From contig JAUYAO010000023.1 of assembly GCA_030692565.1 (NCBI GenBank), positions 1 through 52,998 on the forward strand: 52,998 bases of DNA, in the 5' to 3' direction. How positions within the stretch are numbered: position 1 is the first letter of the stretch; each line of letters opens with the position of its first letter. The translations under genes and the position numbers were made by a program. The DNA is from Nitrospira sp. GTDB taxonomy: Bacteria; Nitrospirota; Nitrospiria; Nitrospirales; Nitrospiraceae. Positions 28,706 through 34,816 of this stretch are shown piece by piece. The notes beneath the pieces are model-generated. The model had not been told where the DNA came from, did not search any database, and saw nothing but the letters and a program-made list of their open reading frames with translations.

Positions 28706-28999
28706 TCACTCCCGGCCAACCCAATACATAGGTCGCCGCTTCAGATTCATGACCGCAAGCACCCGCACGCTGTCTGGTTTGATGGAATAGAGAAGTGCAT
28801 AGGGAAAGCGTGGGACGAGTCGGCGGCGGATCGTCTTGGTGATCAGCGGAGCGGCCTCAGGAAAATTCGCGGCGCCGTGAGTGCAACGCTCGACCTCGTC
28901 AAGAAATGCCTCTCCGAGCCCTGAACTTTCTGACTCGTAGTACTGTGCTGCTTCGTTCAACTCACGACGGGCTAATCGATGGTAGGAGACTCGCTCCAT
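28706..28999 (-). CDS. ParE/RelE-type toxin
   Basis: A 97-residue protein with the RelE/ParE plasmid-stabilisation fold: VSYHRLARRELNEAAQYYESESSGLGEAFLDEVE at the start, then RRRLVPRFPYALLYSI and VLAVMNLKRRPMYW at the end, all typical. ParE toxins inhibit gyrase; RelE relatives cleave mRNA, and this sequence does not decide which. It begins directly after the antitoxin stop (TGA then ATG), antitoxin first. Complete and apparently functional. Confidence 0.88.
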   Translation of the reverse strand: MERVSYHRLARRELNEAAQYYESESSGLGEAFLDEVERCTHGAANFPEAAPLITKTIRRRLVPRFPYALLYSIKPDSVRVLAVMNLKRRPMYWVGRE

Positions 29000-29224
29000 T
29001 CACTTCAGCTTGGCCCGTGCTTCACGGAACACGTCCGTCGCCGAAGCGCTGGAGTCCGGATGGGCATCCATATCCGCATCTCTGCGCTGAGCCTCCTCAG
29101 CCCAGAGCCGGGCATTCTCCTCTTCAGAAAGATTCTCCAGACTCTCCAAGAGCTTCCCAGCCAAGCGCGCGCGCGCCTTCGGATCGAGCTTCAATGCCTC
29201 GGCTTCAAGTTCCTTGATACTCAT
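29000..29224 (-). CDS. Antitoxin, addiction-module component family
   Basis: A 74-residue, mostly helical, charged protein (MSIKELEAEALKLDPKARARLAGKLLESLE...) of the putative addiction module component type (TIGR02574-like), regularly found before ParE-type toxins. No DNA-binding domain of a known kind is evident. Its stop codon is immediately followed by the toxin ATG, so translation is coupled. The overall pattern (LSxEEKxxLAxxLLxSL) is shared with the second antitoxin at 29426-29659. Confidence 0.82.
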   Translation of the reverse strand: MSIKELEAEALKLDPKARARLAGKLLESLENLSEEENARLWAEEAQRRDADMDAHPDSSASATDVFREARAKLK

Positions 29225-29342: not shown

Positions 29343-29429
29343 TCAACACCCCCACCCTCGCATTTCAATAGACCAGACAGAAGCATCGATACGTTCCACC
29401 TCCGCTTCAGGGTGGAACTCCAGCTTCAT
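29343..29429 (-). pseudogene. ParE-type toxin remnant
   Basis: An ATG at 29429 overlapping the antitoxin stop (ATGA) opens MKLEFHPEAEVERIDASVW and stops after 28 codons. The first 15 residues match the start of ParE-type toxins (family pattern MKLxFHPEAExELxEA), but the rest of the ~100-residue domain is gone, and neither other frame downstream restores it. It is a dead toxin beside a surviving antitoxin. Confidence 0.6.
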
Positions 29430-29659
29430 TTCTTCAGACGAGCGCGAAGATGATCGAACACCTGCTGGACAGGAACCAACTGGACCTTCCCCTCTGCGAT
29501 CTCTCGATGACGACGCTGGGCTTCCCTCAACCAGGCCTGTTCGACATCGGTGTCGGTCGGGCCGTCGAGTTCACCGATCAGAACCCTCAACAACTCGGTC
29601 TTATCCTCGAAACTCAGCGACCGAATCATTGCTTTGACCTCGGCAACATTGCTCGACAT
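29426..29659 (-). CDS. Antitoxin, addiction-module component family (orphan)
   Basis: A 77-residue helical protein (MSSNVAEVKAMIRSLSFEDKTELLRVLIGELD...) of the same antitoxin family as the gene at 29000-29224, with the LSFEDKxELLRxLIxEL core. The ATG at 29659 fits the family start; an upstream extension is not conserved. Its toxin is reduced to a fragment, so the protein may persist only as an orphan or may act against related toxins such as the intact ParE-type protein just downstream. Confidence 0.65.
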   Translation of the reverse strand: MSSNVAEVKAMIRSLSFEDKTELLRVLIGELDGPTDTDVEQAWLREAQRRHREIAEGKVQLVPVQQVFDHLRARLKK

Positions 29660-29683
29660 AGCGACATCCACGTCCCAATTCAA

Positions 29684-29949: not shown

Positions 29950-30342
29950 CTACCCCATCACCGCCGACCCATGATGATGAATCATGAGCCACTCGTCGCC
30001 GATGCGTTCGAAGAGGTTTGTCGCGAGCACTTTGGCCTCTTGCGGCTCGTCGGATTGCTGGCTGGTGATGCTTTCGACGCAGATCACCCAGGCCATGTCG
30101 CCTGCGACCTGGATCATGACCTCGGACAATTCAAATTGCATGGAGAACGTATTGTTGAAAATCAGCACCCAGGAGTCGCGCACTTCGGGCCAGTCCGACC
30201 GGAGTGTCCAGCCGGGATGAATACAGGTGACATATTCCTGGTGCGCCCAGATGCGATCCATCTTGGCGATATCGAGGCTCCCGAAGGCCTCGTAAAAGGC
30301 TTGATTGGCTTTGGTCACTTCGTCGATGCGTTGTTCGAGCAT
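29950..30342 (-). CDS. SnoaL/NTF2-like protein (DUF4440 type)
   Basis: A 130-residue soluble protein with the NTF2-like cone fold pattern: an N-terminal helix (RIDEVTKANQAFYEAFGSLD), MDRIWAHQEYVTCIHPGW, then strands ending in ATNLFERIGDEWLMIHHHGSAV. Relatives are annotated as ketosteroid-isomerase-like or calcium/calmodulin-kinase association domains. The sequence gives no specific substrate. It is a single gene on the minus strand. Confidence 0.82.
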   Translation of the reverse strand: MLEQRIDEVTKANQAFYEAFGSLDIAKMDRIWAHQEYVTCIHPGWTLRSDWPEVRDSWVLIFNNTFSMQFELSEVMIQVAGDMAWVICVESITSQQSDEPQEAKVLATNLFERIGDEWLMIHHHGSAVMG

Positions 30343-30431: not shown

Positions 30432-30842
30432 TCAACTGGAGGGTCTGGCGCGAACGATCTCCTGAATCAGCAGGGGAAACTCTTCCCGCAGATGGTGCTT
30501 ATCAATGGCCTGGTCGACCAACGGCATCCTCCGCGCAACGGCGAGATGGACTTCGTCGAAGGACATAATGACCACGCGCACGGACGAATTCCATTGTTTG
30601 ATCGGTTCGACGGCTTCGATGCCGCCCATGTCGGGCATATTCGCATCGAGCAACACCAGCTCAGGTCGCCGTTCAGGGAGGACGCTGAGGGCCTCTCTGG
30701 CCGATCCGCAGATCCCGACCACCTTCACCAGCGGCACCCCGCTCAGCCAGTCCTCTAAAGCGCGGAGAAGAACCTGATGATCGTCGACCACCAGAACCCG
30801 GATCGGGCCTCCCGCTGGACGGTGGTTATTTTCAGGAAGCAT
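30432..30842 (-). CDS. Single-domain response regulator (receiver only)
   Basis: A 136-residue protein that is one receiver domain: RVLVVDDHQVLLRALEDWL with the acidic pair D20-D21, phosphoacceptor D66 in LVLLDANMPDMGG, a serine in VVIMSFDE, and lysine in QAIDKHHL. All phosphorylation residues are present. No output domain follows, so it would work as a phosphate relay or sink, or by protein contact. The ATG at 30842 overlaps the end of the preceding small gene by 11 bp; it belongs to the kinase-regulator operon upstream. Confidence 0.85.
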   Translation of the reverse strand: MLPENNHRPAGGPIRVLVVDDHQVLLRALEDWLSGVPLVKVVGICGSAREALSVLPERRPELVLLDANMPDMGGIEAVEPIKQWNSSVRVVIMSFDEVHLAVARRMPLVDQAIDKHHLREEFPLLIQEIVRARPSS

Positions 30843-31113
30843 CTGGAGTGAGCCCCTGAGGTGGCCAGGGAACTCCGACACCGAATTGCCTCGCCATCTT
30901 ATAGATCCCGATCATCGACTCGGCGCGCAAGCGGGCCTGCTCATCCGTCGACAAATTGGTCGAGACCCAGCCTTGCGGCTCGCGCCGAAAGATCCGAAAC
31001 GGCCTGGGAGCATCGCCGGCCTCGGACTCGCCGGTCACCAAATACTCTTCCCCTTGAGGCCCCTTCACCAAGAGTCCAATGACAACCATCACGCACGCCC
31101 TCATATGAAACAT
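30832..31113 (-). CDS. Small hypothetical protein in a two-component operon
   Basis: A 93-residue protein of unknown family. It starts with a short hydrophobic stretch (ACVMVVIGLLVKG) and continues EEYLVTGESEAGDAPRPFRIFRREPQGWVSTNL, then a helical tail ending in a proline-rich segment. Alternative ATGs at 31104 and 31089 cannot be excluded. It lies between the NarL-type regulator and the receiver gene, with a palindrome at 31171-31187 about 60 bp upstream of its start, so it may be a target of that regulator. Confidence 0.6.
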   Translation of the reverse strand: MFHMRACVMVVIGLLVKGPQGEEYLVTGESEAGDAPRPFRIFRREPQGWVSTNLSTDEQARLRAESMIGIYKMARQFGVGVPWPPQGLTPDAS

Positions 31114-31170
31114 TCAGGGGCGATCGCCCGTCAGGGAGATAGTCTTACCAGATGCCTCCCTCCCTACCCA

Positions 31171-31187
31171 GTGAGGAAATTCCTGAT
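31171..31187 (-). promoter_or_regulatory. Putative regulator-binding site (half-conserved palindrome)
   Basis: On the minus strand it reads ATCAGGAATTTCCTCAC, identical in the first 14 of 17 bases to the perfect palindrome upstream of the histidine kinase gene (33868-33884). It lies between the NarL-type regulator and the small gene beginning at 31113. Confidence 0.5.
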
Positions 31188-31234: not shown

Positions 31235-31888
31235 TTATGAGGAGGGATGGACCAACCCGACCTGGATCGCAAACCGGACGAGCCCGGCGACATCATGGAT
31301 ATCCAGCCGCTCCATCAGCTGGGAACGATGCGTTTCAACCGTTTTAGCGCTGAGACTCAATCGAAAGGCAATTTCTTTGGTGGAATGACCTTCGGCGATA
31401 AGCTGCAAAATCTCCCGCTGACGCGGGCTGAGCCGATCGAGCGGATTGAGCGGACGCCCCCCTTCATGCTGATAGGCCTCAATCGCATACCGCGCCACCG
31501 AGGGAGTCAGATAAGGCTCGCCCTTGCCGACCGTTCTGATCGCCAGCTCCAGTTCCTGAATGTCGGCGCCCTTCAACAAGTACCCTGTCACTCCGGCCTT
31601 CAAGGCCTGGCGAAGGTACTCTTCATTGGCATGCATCGATAAGATGACCACCTTGACCTTCGGCCAGCTCTTCGTAATCCGGCCGGCGGCTTCCAACCCA
31701 TTCAGCCCAGGCATCGCAATGTCCATGAGCACCAAATCGGGCTGATGCGTCTCCACCGCCTTCACCGCGGCCTGCCCATCGCTGACCTCGGCCACCACCG
31801 TGACGCCGCCCATCTTATCCAGGAGCGCATGAATCCCGGCTCTGACCAGCTGGTGATCTTCGGCCAACAGCACGCGGACCTTCGTCAT
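31235..31888 (-). CDS. NarL/FixJ-type response regulator
   Basis: A 217-residue regulator: receiver domain with E10-D11, phosphoacceptor D56 (VLMDIAMPGLNG), serine in VVILSMHA and lysine in GYLLKGAD; then a GerE/LuxR helix-turn-helix (LSPRQREILQLIAEGHSTKEIAFRLSLSAKTVETHRSQLMERL). The ATG at 31888 overlaps the kinase stop (ATGA), so it is the cognate partner of that kinase. Longer frames upstream are part of the kinase gene. It is the likely ligand of the shared palindromes at 33868-33884 and 31171-31187, by inference. Confidence 0.92.
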   Translation of the reverse strand: MTKVRVLLAEDHQLVRAGIHALLDKMGGVTVVAEVSDGQAAVKAVETHQPDLVLMDIAMPGLNGLEAAGRITKSWPKVKVVILSMHANEEYLRQALKAGVTGYLLKGADIQELELAIRTVGKGEPYLTPSVARYAIEAYQHEGGRPLNPLDRLSPRQREILQLIAEGHSTKEIAFRLSLSAKTVETHRSQLMERLDIHDVAGLVRFAIQVGLVHPSS

Positions 31889-33717
31889 AACGACAAGGCC
31901 TCCTGCTGCGGCTCGGTCAGCGGGACGGAGAAGACCAAGGACGTTCCTTGCCCGATCGTCGATTGAACCCGCATGATGCCTCCCACAAGGCTGACCCGTT
32001 CCTCCATCCCCAACATCCCCAGGCTCAACCCCTGGTGGGCTCGGACTCGCATGGCCGCCACGTTGAACCCGCACCCGTCGTCCTGCACCACCACGCGCAC
32101 CTGTTCGGAAGCCACCGCCAGGGAGAGCGAGACCGATGTGGCCTTGGCATGGCGAGCGATATTGGTCATCGCCTCCTGCACGACGCGAAAACAGGCAATG
32201 CTCCGCGAACCCGTCAAAATCAGCGGGGCCTCGTCCAGATGCAGATGCAGCTTCCAGCCGGCCCGCTCCGCCTGTTTGGTCGCGTACCAGCGCAGGGCCG
32301 GCACCAGCCCGAGGTCGTCCAATAGCGAGGGCCGCAGATCCAGCGCCAGGCTCCGAACTCGGACCAACAGCTGGTCGCTGATCTCGATGCTTTCGTTCAA
32401 CTCCGTCGAAGACGCTGTCCCTGGCCCGTCACGCTGCACCTGTTGCAAGTTCAGTTTGAGCGCCGTCAGGACCTGGCCGATTTCGTCGTGAAGATCCTGC
32501 GCGACGGCGCGACGCTCCGCTTCCTGCGCGTCGAAGAGGCGCTGAGCCAGCGTCCGGGCCCGCACGGTGGCGTCGCCGAGTTCAGCGGTCCGCTCGGCCA
32601 CGCGCAACTCCAGCATGGCATGCGCCTCGCGGAGCAGATCTTCCGCCTTTCTCCATTCCGTCACATCGTCGACGACAAATGAACACCGCACCGCCCCATC
32701 GGCTGCCTGGCCGATCATCGACACCGTCGCCAGCAACGATCGCCGTTCACCCTGGCCGCCTCGCGCATCATCGTGCTCGTACTCGAACCGCACCGGTGAC
32801 TGCTCCGTGATACAAAGACGATAGTGAGTCATCCACAGGCGAGCCAATTTCCTCGGCACACCCAGCTGAGAACAGAGCCGCCCGTTCATCCTGTCCGGAG
32901 TGGTGCCAAAGAGCCTGGCGGTGGCACGATTGCTGGACAGATGCCGGACGTCGTCGTCGAGCACCTCCACTACGCCCATCATGAGCGCCGCACTTTCGAA
33001 GAACGCCCGCAACATCCCTTCGCTTTCCTTGAGCGAGGCCTCCGCTGCTTTCCTGGCGGTGATGTCGTGCGCGATGGTGGACAGACCCACGACGGAACCG
33101 AACTGGTCCCGAATCGGGGAGCGGCTCAGCGCCAACGCGATCACAGATCCATCACGATGCGGCCACGCCGTCTCATACGGAGACACCGCGATGCCAGACA
33201 GCAGTTGCCGGCTCTTCTCAGCTTCTTCGGCCGCCTGCTCCGATGCCATGATTGCGCTCAGAGGGTGACCGATCCGTTCAGGAGCGCCATAGCCGAACAG
33301 ACGCTCCGCGGCCCCATTCCAGCTGGTGACCATGCCATTGAGATCCTGGCTGATAATCGCATCCCCCGAGGAATCGACGATGGCGGCCAACTGCCTGGTC
33401 CCACGATCCACTAAGATGGTACGGCTCCGAATCACAAGAACCGCAATCACCCAGAAGAGGACGGCGCTGAGCGACCGGTTCAGGAAGGCCACCTCCACCG
33501 GAATGCCGGGTGGAGAGAGAACCAATCCGAGATAGGTTGTCAGCGTCGCCAGGCCCGCGACCAGATAGGCAGACCGTTCCTGCTCCAACCAGAGCGTGAG
33601 CACAATCGGCACCGTATAGAGGAGGAATACCTGATACCCCAGGGGCGTGAGGTAATCGAGCAGGAACGTCCCTGCCAGCATCAAGGCGATCGCGATATGG
33701 ATGGTCCGAGTCGTCAT
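31885..33717 (-). CDS. Membrane histidine kinase with two PAS domains (HisKA_3)
   Basis: A 610-residue sensor kinase. Four N-terminal membrane helices (about 5-105) with little periplasmic sequence are followed by two PAS domains (about 115-245 and 255-385; DGMVTSWNGAAERLFGYG-like NGMVTSWNGAAERLFGYG marks the first), a coiled coil, the HisKA_3 dimerisation helix with H410 (AQDLHDEIGQVLTALKLNL) and a HATPase domain (VQEAMTNIARHA, DDGCGF). This is the NarX/DegS-like class that phosphorylates NarL-type regulators, here the coupled gene downstream. The signal is unknown. I chose the ATG at 33717 (AAGG upstream); an ATG at 33819 would add 34 unconserved residues. Confidence 0.9.
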   Translation of the reverse strand: MTTRTIHIAIALMLAGTFLLDYLTPLGYQVFLLYTVPIVLTLWLEQERSAYLVAGLATLTTYLGLVLSPPGIPVEVAFLNRSLSAVLFWVIAVLVIRSRTILVDRGTRQLAAIVDSSGDAIISQDLNGMVTSWNGAAERLFGYGAPERIGHPLSAIMASEQAAEEAEKSRQLLSGIAVSPYETAWPHRDGSVIALALSRSPIRDQFGSVVGLSTIAHDITARKAAEASLKESEGMLRAFFESAALMMGVVEVLDDDVRHLSSNRATARLFGTTPDRMNGRLCSQLGVPRKLARLWMTHYRLCITEQSPVRFEYEHDDARGGQGERRSLLATVSMIGQAADGAVRCSFVVDDVTEWRKAEDLLREAHAMLELRVAERTAELGDATVRARTLAQRLFDAQEAERRAVAQDLHDEIGQVLTALKLNLQQVQRDGPGTASSTELNESIEISDQLLVRVRSLALDLRPSLLDDLGLVPALRWYATKQAERAGWKLHLHLDEAPLILTGSRSIACFRVVQEAMTNIARHAKATSVSLSLAVASEQVRVVVQDDGCGFNVAAMRVRAHQGLSLGMLGMEERVSLVGGIMRVQSTIGQGTSLVFSVPLTEPQQEALSL

Positions 33718-33830
33718 AGACCTTGGGTCAGGCAATGCGGCCTGTCGGCCTTGGAACGGCAGGGAAAATGAGGCCCAGGACCTGTGCGGCACAGATAAGC
33801 GCGCATGGATGGGGCGCATCGTACAGGAAA

Positions 33831-33857
33831 GGCCCTACTAGAAGCAGTACTAGGGCC
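33831..33857. terminator. Hairpin between the EamA gene and the kinase gene
   Basis: Arms GGCCCTA (33831-33837) and TAGGGCC (33851-33857). On the minus strand the second arm is followed by TTTCC, so it could end EamA transcription or attenuate the kinase leader. Confidence 0.35.
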
Positions 33858-33867
33858 GTTATTCCAG

Positions 33868-33884
33868 ATCAGGAATTTCCTGAT
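33868..33884. promoter_or_regulatory. Perfect 17-bp palindrome upstream of the kinase operon
   Basis: ATCAGGAATTTCCTGAT, 8-bp arms around a central base. It lies about 150 bp upstream of the kinase start and recurs in near-identical form at 31171-31187. It is a candidate binding site of the NarL-type regulator. Confidence 0.55.
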
Positions 33885-33895
33885 AGGTAAACACC

Positions 33896-34816
33896 CTACT
33901 CCTGAGTACGCTCCGAATCGGCCGGCAGCTTCGTGGATCGATCGACGGCCCAGACACCGGCGAGGATTAGCGCAATCCCGATGAACTCCACCGGACCGAC
34001 CGGCTCATACAGAATCAGCGCTGAAAGCGCGACCGCGGCCACCGGCGTGAGGTTGCCGAGGATCGACGCCCGGGAGGGCCCGATCCCTTGAACCCCGAAC
34101 AACCAGGCTTGCTGCGCCACAGCCGTCGCGAAGACGACGAGATACCCGAGCGCCAGCCAATCCGGCACCGTTACCGAAGCCGCGCCGGCATCGAGCATCT
34201 TGCGATCCGTCCACAAGAGAGGAATCTGCAGCACGGTCGCCACCAACAACGTCGTCCAATTCACCGTGAGCGGCGAGATCCGGTCCATCACGGCGCGGCT
34301 GCCGATGCTATAGAGCGCCCAACTGACCACGCCCAGGAACACCAACAGACTGCCTAACACCGGATGTTCGCCGGCTGCCTGAAAGCCCGCAATCGACACC
34401 AGCGCCACACCGGCGCAAGACAGCAGCCCCCCGGCCCACACCGATCGGAGCGGCACATCCTGAATCATCACGGCCGACAGCAGCGCCGTGACCACGGGAG
34501 CCGACCCGATAATCACGCCCGCCACCGCCCCGCTCACATACTTCAGCCCCATCAGAATCAACAGATGATTGCCCAACACCCCAAGCCCGAGCAGAAAGAG
34601 TGTGCGGATGTCGCCCCCGGACAACTTGGCCAGCGCCCCCTCCTGCCACCACCAGGTCGTGAGCAGAATCGCCAGCCCGCCGATGTCGCGCAGCACGGAC
34701 GCTTCGACGGCGGAGAAGGATCCCAGCGCCAGCTTTTGCGCGACAATCGACCCGCCCCACAGTACGGCGGCAAGCGCAAGGGCCCCATAGGCCGCGCCGA
34801 TGGACGACGATTTCAC
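33896..34816 (-). CDS. EamA/DMT family transporter
   Basis: A 306-residue inner-membrane protein with about ten helices in two EamA repeats (residues 8-140 and 152-290), as in RhaT/RarD-type drug/metabolite exporters. The N-terminal WGGSIVAQKLAL and the second-half LGNLTPVAAVALSALILYEP are family blocks. The substrate cannot be told. Start is a GTG at 34816 overlapping the stop of the upstream methyltransferase gene (GTGA), so the two are coupled; the methyltransferase product may be the exported compound, but this is a guess. Confidence 0.88.
   Translation of the reverse strand: MKSSSIGAAYGALALAAVLWGGSIVAQKLALGSFSAVEASVLRDIGGLAILLTTWWWQEGALAKLSGGDIRTLFLLGLGVLGNHLLILMGLKYVSGAVAGVIIGSAPVVTALLSAVMIQDVPLRSVWAGGLLSCAGVALVSIAGFQAAGEHPVLGSLLVFLGVVSWALYSIGSRAVMDRISPLTVNWTTLLVATVLQIPLLWTDRKMLDAGAASVTVPDWLALGYLVVFATAVAQQAWLFGVQGIGPSRASILGNLTPVAAVALSALILYEPVGPVEFIGIALILAGVWAVDRSTKLPADSERTQE

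Follow-up and report, generated by a model that had tools for sequence, protein, structure and literature searches.

A palindrome kept beside a NarL-type two-component operon of Nitrospira: a predicted operator that recurs at urea transporter genes in part of the genus

The genes described here lie in a stretch of Nitrospira sp. DNA that was analysed over its full length of 52,998 bases and is called the window below. They are all read from the minus strand, in the order EamA transporter, site 1, sensor histidine kinase, response regulator, site 2, small protein, receiver protein, and SnoaL-like protein (Table 1). The regulator is made up of a receiver domain (Response_reg, PF00072; 104.1 bits, cut-off 30.2) and a C-terminal GerE domain (PF00196; 66 bits, cut-off 23.5). 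Its partner kinase, of the HisKA_3 type (PF07730; 42.1 bits, cut-off 24) with a HATPase_c domain (48.6 bits, cut-off 26.4), is encoded in the same operon, the two genes overlapping by 4 bp (31885-31888). The kinase reading frame is open to 33819, and the codon score and most relatives favor a start at 33717; in most loci, the alignment with the kinases of close relatives begins at query residue 25-35, and in G077 at residue 3. Among NCBIfam models, the best for the regulator is MctR (NF052445), with 181.4 bits for a curated cut-off of 300, which rules the regulator out as an MctR equivalog. The 85-aa small protein has no match in a Pfam search. The SnoaL-like protein is 78-99% identical where it is seen in relatives, and its gene is a possible end of the transcript expected from site 2. 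Also on the minus strand of the window, at 28706-29224 and 29426-29683, are a gene for a ParE-type toxin, which has an Unstab_antitox partner, and another Unstab_antitox gene that stands alone.

Table 1. Genes and sequence elements of the locus, with window coordinates
Feature	Coordinates	Strand	Basis or remark
SnoaL-like protein	29950..30342	-	Pfam; at the locus in both clades
Single-domain receiver protein, overlapping the small-protein gene	30432..30881	-	Response_reg, 62.6 bits
Small protein, 85 aa	30832..31089	-	Open reading frame; genus-wide search
TGGTAAGAC, extended -10-like element, 21 nt past site 2	31142..31150	-	6/9 clade-A loci
Site 2, ATCAGGAATTTCCTCAC	31171..31187	-	Proposed operator, regulator/small-protein interval
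NarL/FixJ-type response regulator, 217 aa, receiver and GerE/LuxR HTH	31235..31888	-	Pfam
Sensor histidine kinase (PAS, HisKA_3, HATPase_c)	31885..33717	-	Pfam, codon score, alignments of relatives
Site 1, ATCAGGAATTTCCTGAT	33868..33884	.	Proposed operator 5' of the kinase-regulator operon
EamA transporter, syntenic border	33896..34816	-	Pfam; synteny with relatives

Site 1 is a palindrome, ATCAGGAATTTCCTGAT, with 8-bp arms that are complementary around one central base. According to gene calls made with a codon-score script, both sites are intergenic. Site 1 starts 11 bp behind the EamA stop and lies 150 bp ahead of the likely kinase start, and site 2 lies 47 bp past the regulator stop and 81 bp ahead of the small-protein start. 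The sequence and the gene calls thus agree with the preliminary description, in which a perfect 17-bp palindrome had been noticed 5' of the kinase-regulator operon. That description also gave a second, minus-strand copy with a 14/17 match between the regulator and the small-protein gene; the copy is there, but its actual match to ATCAGGAATTTCCTGAT is 15/17 on the minus strand (two mismatches, vs. three on the plus strand). A scan of the window at up to three mismatches finds exactly two places, sites 1 and 2, as had been said from inspection by eye, and dinucleotide shuffles of the window give a mean of 0.11 matches with a maximum of 2. The pair of palindromes is a real feature of the locus.

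A search for the kinase (E ≤ 1e-120) in 79 genomes of the genus gives nine positives, namely the own genome and eight relatives, which are called clade A hereafter. Within the genus, the 85-aa small protein was found only in these nine genomes; its match in G095 is marginal, with an E-value of 9e-6 and one in-frame stop (L145, 2817-3016). Sites 1 and 2 occur at matching places in all nine loci, including that of G095, whose kinase shows about 60% identity and which keeps both palindromes while its small-protein match has the in-frame stop. The check proposed at the outset, the presence of both sites in orthologous loci, therefore comes out positive in 8/8 relatives, site 1 of G025 having three mismatches in all. 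In a nine-way alignment, each site is the best-conserved 15-bp window of its intergenic region, with 12/15 invariant columns at site 1 and 13/15 at site 2. Variation is limited: four copies of site 1 (G095, G033, G025, G026) start with TAAGG, not TCAGG, and the site-2 copies of G033 and G095 are one base off from the other seven. In the closest loci, similarity spans the whole intergenic region; in those with 76-82% kinase identity and in G095, the palindromes are conspicuous against diverged flanks. A second block conserved in clade A is found between site 1 and the kinase, at 33815-33859 (CCCTAGTACTGCTTCT..AGGGCCTTTCCTGTA.GATGC), with counterparts in L026-L030, L143, and L144 that are less exact in some cases; it may house a promoter or leader element.

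Beyond clade A, the palindrome accompanies the regulator gene. An ortholog of the regulator (E ≤ 1e-86) is present, one per genome, in 51 of the 79 genomes, own included; this count leaves out eight weaker hits with 57-63% identity. Of 54 regulator loci, three were dropped because the regulators are cut by contig ends (G007, G034, G023). Where contigs reach, the order EamA, kinase, regulator and, later, receiver and SnoaL genes recurs, although not in every locus. A genus-wide pattern, TCRGGRWWWYCCYGA, is found with 0-1 mismatch 23-111 bp past the regulator stop in 50/51 loci (34 without mismatch, 16 with one); the degenerate pattern was built from part of the same loci, so that its fit to the 51 is not blind. 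The exception is G072, whose best match has three mismatches. Within 300 bp past the regulator stop, reversed TCRGGRWWWYCCYGA gives 0/51 loci at 0-1 mismatch, its best match having 3. The palindrome persists across regulators of 63-69% identity. When the 15-mer alone is searched at 0-1 mismatch, 53/79 genomes have it, 44 of them without this kinase, and for this reason single 15-mer matches carry little weight. Exact matches to the degenerate pattern number, among the matches listed, 0-6 per genome vs. 0-1 for the reversed control, several of them being inside genes. Outside clade A, a site 5' of the kinase is not family-wide; among the fetched loci it is seen only in G012, G018, and G031, where an exact match lies between the kinase and a divergent gene of 433-435 aa. 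The one protein of this group that was tested (435 aa, L131) is porin-like, matching porin_ExtI with 72 bits, below the cut-off of 150.

Many loci of clade B also show recurrent spacings around the site. Over 41 such loci, a second copy of the palindrome placed at offset -22 has a mean of 3.98 mismatches, vs. 9.5 ± 1.3 at other offsets, and in 16/41 loci a second copy with at most three mismatches lies exactly 22 bp upstream; none is found at 22 bp in the nine clade-A loci. A TGnnAnnnT element lies 20-21 nt downstream of the palindrome in 31/50 loci, that is in 31/41 of clade B and 0/9 of clade A, for a mean of 1.4 loci and a maximum of 6 in a letter-shuffle control. As the genomes are related and not independent, these shuffle and offset numbers overstate significance and are descriptive values, not probabilities. 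In clade A, six of the nine loci have the same letters, TGGTAAGAC, at 21 nt, which miss the last T of TGnnAnnnT. If the TGnnAnnnT element is an extended -10, the palindrome is centered near -43. Scans for a sigma-70 consensus around both sites found no promoter.

The recognition helix of the regulator has the same consensus, KTVETHRSQLMERLDIHDV, in clade A (nine regulators) and clade B (42), with some columns below 80%. The comparison was extended to eight more distant regulators. That of G063, a 60% relative with the near-same helix KTVETHRAHLMERLEIHDV, has a site with one mismatch about 70 bp past its stop. Paralogs with helix KTVEGHRAELMRRL in the clade-A genomes G033, G065, G026, and G025 have no intergenic site at 0-1 mismatch in the scanned stretch, G025 showing one exact match, inside a gene. 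The same scan found no intergenic site for the regulators of G094 (helix KTVDSHRTELMRRL), G096, and G070 (other helices). In a tree of the regulators, clade A forms one clade (0.96) outside clade B (0.58 for B with G063). The palindrome-less regulators of G096 and G070 are placed nearer to clade B than clade A is, with weak support.

In part of the genus, the palindrome is also found at genes of the urea ABC transporter. Up to 600 bp of DNA upstream of urtA were searched in 47 genomes, 36 with a regulator ortholog and 11 without. UrtA hits starting past query residue 60 or having less than 55% identity were left out, as were, for having less than 150 bp of DNA upstream, the G006 urtA and one copy each in L240 and L291. 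The palindrome is present at 0-1 mismatch in 14/47 genomes, all of them among the 36 with the ortholog. No such site occurs in the 11 genomes without ortholog (G007, G008, G021, G023, G060, G063, G073, G082, G083, G084, G089), where the best match, in G073, has two mismatches; among these 11, the regulators of G007 and G023 are truncated at a contig end, and that of G063 is a distant one. With the pattern reversed, 0/47 genomes match at 0-1 mismatch, the best match having 2. In 8 of the 14 genomes (G005, G002, G031, G018, G012, G059, G061, G090), the urtA site is the same site that follows the regulator, because the regulator and urtA genes adjoin; in the other six (G019, G064, G097, G068, G017, G028), it is a separate copy. 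The site is absent at urtA in 22 of the 36 genomes with regulator, including the three of the nine clade-A genomes that have UrtA (G077, G022, G025).

Further copies lie near urea genes, their placement relative to gene calls being assessed for exact matches in fetched loci, among the matches listed. Three more genomes (G066, G089, G007) have the palindrome between urtA and urtB, G091 has a site 664 bp upstream of urtA, and in G092 the palindrome sequence occurs, among the matches listed, on the contig that bears urtA. Copies beside urtB are found in four genomes, and one of them leads into urease gamma and beta genes; in G064, one copy stands ahead of a urtB-like start, an ABC-transporter fragment, and the urease gamma and beta genes. 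In G089, the copy beside urtB occurs with no regulator found. The regulator site and separate urt sites coexist in one genome in G064, G068, and G019. UrtA was identified by TIGR03407 (568.6 bits in L222, the one tested; cut-off 492.75) and UrtB by TIGR03409 (383.6 bits in L238 and 385.7 in L262, the two tested; cut-off 250.3). In the UrtB proteins of L238 and L262, the permease part is preceded by more than 220 additional N-terminal residues, which give a marginal HEAT-repeat match.

Exact matches are also found near a permease family, whose 483-aa member in L119 matches Transp_cyt_pur marginally (24.7 bits, cut-off 23.5). The targets of 543-606 aa gave no Pfam or NCBIfam hit for the members in L222 and L137 and for a 282-aa piece in L213, no NCBIfam hit for that in L214, and no PDB hit for that in L222. 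In G068, a STAS gene follows the regulator-proximal site. Outside the regulator locus, exact intergenic copies of TCAGGAATTTCCTGA without a urea link are seen in L147-L151 (G091, G092) and L146 (G021); tests of neighboring genes gave a nuclease-like one in L150 and a YceD gene in L146. G021 thus has an exact palindrome, with no regulator found. Further exact matches in relatives are inside genes or without a urea link.

The own genome (4.17 Mb) offers no such set of targets. At up to three mismatches, the 17-mer gives 28 matches at 24 places, an excess over the four matches of the backwards pattern, and of the 22 places outside the window 19 are inside called genes. With the degenerate palindrome at up to one mismatch, 43 places are found for nine in the reversed control; 37 are inside genes, and the six intergenic ones are sites 1 and 2, C37:26565, and three weak matches (L332, L342, L343). 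No hit was obtained when this genome was searched for UrtA. The third palindrome, TCAGGGTTTTCCTGA at G000:C37:26565-26579 (L008, L316), is kept in G030 and G033 (L254, L255) and lies in a long non-coding stretch, about 1.1 kb past a gene for a 167-aa receiver protein; Rfam found no RNA in that stretch. The preliminary description had advanced a regulon of the NarL-type regulator and suggested looking for a coherent gene set in this genome and in related ones. Conservation of the sites and the urea genes of relatives speak mostly for the idea, the coherent set, found in part of the genus, being that for urea ABC transport and, in a single case, urease. In the own genome, where 37/43 near matches are in genes, no coherent set appears and the idea narrows: the candidate regulon is the locus itself, and a larger one is seen in relatives only.

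We predict that the palindrome, with core TCAGGAAATTCCTGA here and TCRGGRWWWYCCYGA across the genus, is the operator of the regulator encoded between its two copies, and we put the probability of this reading at roughly four in five. The tree placement of G096 and G070 and the absence of a strict TGnnAnnnT from clade A make this confidence slightly lower. An improbable alternative is that the palindrome serves a different transcription factor, such as a general nitrogen regulator, which would act on both the regulator operon and the urea genes. It is by linkage only that a binder is assigned, and the exact copy of G021 and the copy beside urtB in G089 occur where no regulator was detected. However, the site follows the regulator in 50/51 loci, whereas 33/47 genomes have none at urtA, and it is missing by paralogs with a changed helix while being present by the 60% relative with nearly the same one. 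On this evidence, another binder was rejected.

Alternatively, the inverted repeat could act as RNA, as a terminator or leader hairpin past the regulator and before the kinase. The palindrome does lie 23-111 bp past the regulator stop, site 1 is 11 bp past that of EamA, and the two arms could form a stem with a 3-base loop. Yet consensus scans found no terminator-like site at either palindrome, the one such match being elsewhere, at 33771-33783. In addition, an A against C is kept at the third pair in many clade-B copies, and site 2 ends in TCCTCA in 7/9 clade-A loci, its second position lacking a pairing partner in 9/9; hence, pairing is not what is conserved. The spacings of 22 and 20-21 bp fit a protein on DNA. 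We hold the RNA hairpin to be very improbable and reject it. Finally, two chance palindromes, or a sequence kept merely through closeness of the genomes, would agree with the closest loci being alike across the whole intergenic region and with the many degenerate matches inside genes (37/43 in the own genome), but this reading is rejected as extremely improbable, because the palindromes stand out from diverged flanks at 76-82% kinase identity and in G095 (about 60%) and the palindrome recurs with regulators that are 63-69% identical.

The operator reading can be set beside known systems. Like VraR and NarL, both of solved structure, the regulator has a receiver and a GerE HTH, and it matches them over most of its length (E = 2.7e-37 and 3.6e-32, respectively). 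The sites of NarL (heptamers TACYYMT) and VraR differ from the present palindrome in sequence, and the target genes are different too. RcsB of Escherichia coli, also of the NarL type, is related to it along its entire length (E about 2e-21 in a search of PDB sequences), without the regulator being a member of the RcsB family (model NF008098, 88.9 bits, cut-off 235). According to passages of PMC5829831, one half-site of RcsB, TTAGGAA, is recognized specifically through K180 and S184 in helix 9, and that half-site is close to the TCAGGAA found here. In contrast, RcsB can pair with RcsA and is a member of a phosphorelay, whereas the present regulator forms a plain kinase-regulator pair, the palindrome is near-perfect, and no accessory regulator is seen.

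The position of the palindrome, its conservation, its spacing, and its association with the regulator gene and the urea genes are observed directly in the genomes. From these we infer a mechanism, extending to binding, dimer formation, phosphorylation, the sign of control, and the signal. In the predicted scheme, the regulator would be phosphorylated by its kinase, and a dimer of the phosphorylated form would bind the palindrome, each HTH reading one TCAGGA half; the palindrome and the 22-bp spacing fit such a phosphorylation-dependent dimer on an inverted repeat. The bound motif would be TCAGGAAATTCCTGA here and TCAGGRTTTYCCYGA at urtA and urtB in clade B. A site near -43 behind the regulator would suit a class II activator, which touches RNA polymerase at the place of a -35 box. 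In this genome, site 1 would control the kinase-regulator operon, giving autoregulation, and site 2 the small-protein and receiver genes; the autoregulated circuit including the small protein, already suggested in the preliminary description, is supported by the conservation of the sites in 9/9 loci, with binding taken as probable from sequence. For part of the genus, we propose that sites of this kind, often present as two copies at a 22-bp spacing, serve the orthologous regulator in the control of urtA, urtB, and a permease, and in one genome of the urease genes as well. As these targets of the relatives are urea genes, nitrogen availability is a first guess for the signal of the kinase.

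In cyanobacteria, UrtABCDE is under the control of NtcA; in some of the relatives studied here, by contrast, it is the predicted operator of a NarL-type regulator that is found at the UrtA and UrtB genes. Control of urea transporters by a NarL-type two-component system was not found in the open-licence literature covered, including passages of PMC5767232. A NarL-type operator is of a known kind; for the target set, and for an operator or urea regulon of such a regulator, no report was found in the titles and abstract openings of open-licence literature.

A wider reading, which we put forward tentatively and regard as rather doubtful, is that the regulon has been exchanged. The NarL-type system of most genomes of the genus would be a dedicated regulator of the uptake of urea and related nitrogen compounds, and in clade A, where UrtA is missing or has no site, regulator and operator would have been kept and rewired into an autoregulated loop feeding the clade-specific small protein and receiver, which may modulate the kinase. 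The tree is compatible with urea control having been either lost here or gained elsewhere, and the clades offer a natural series of differing regulons. If these organisms are Nitrospira-like nitrifiers, the way in which they turn on the use of urea deserves attention, since it connects them with ammonia oxidizers and with a comammox way of life. With a predicted operator defined by sequence and a regulator linked to it, such control becomes testable, as the regulator, the site, a promoter geometry, and target genes are all specified.
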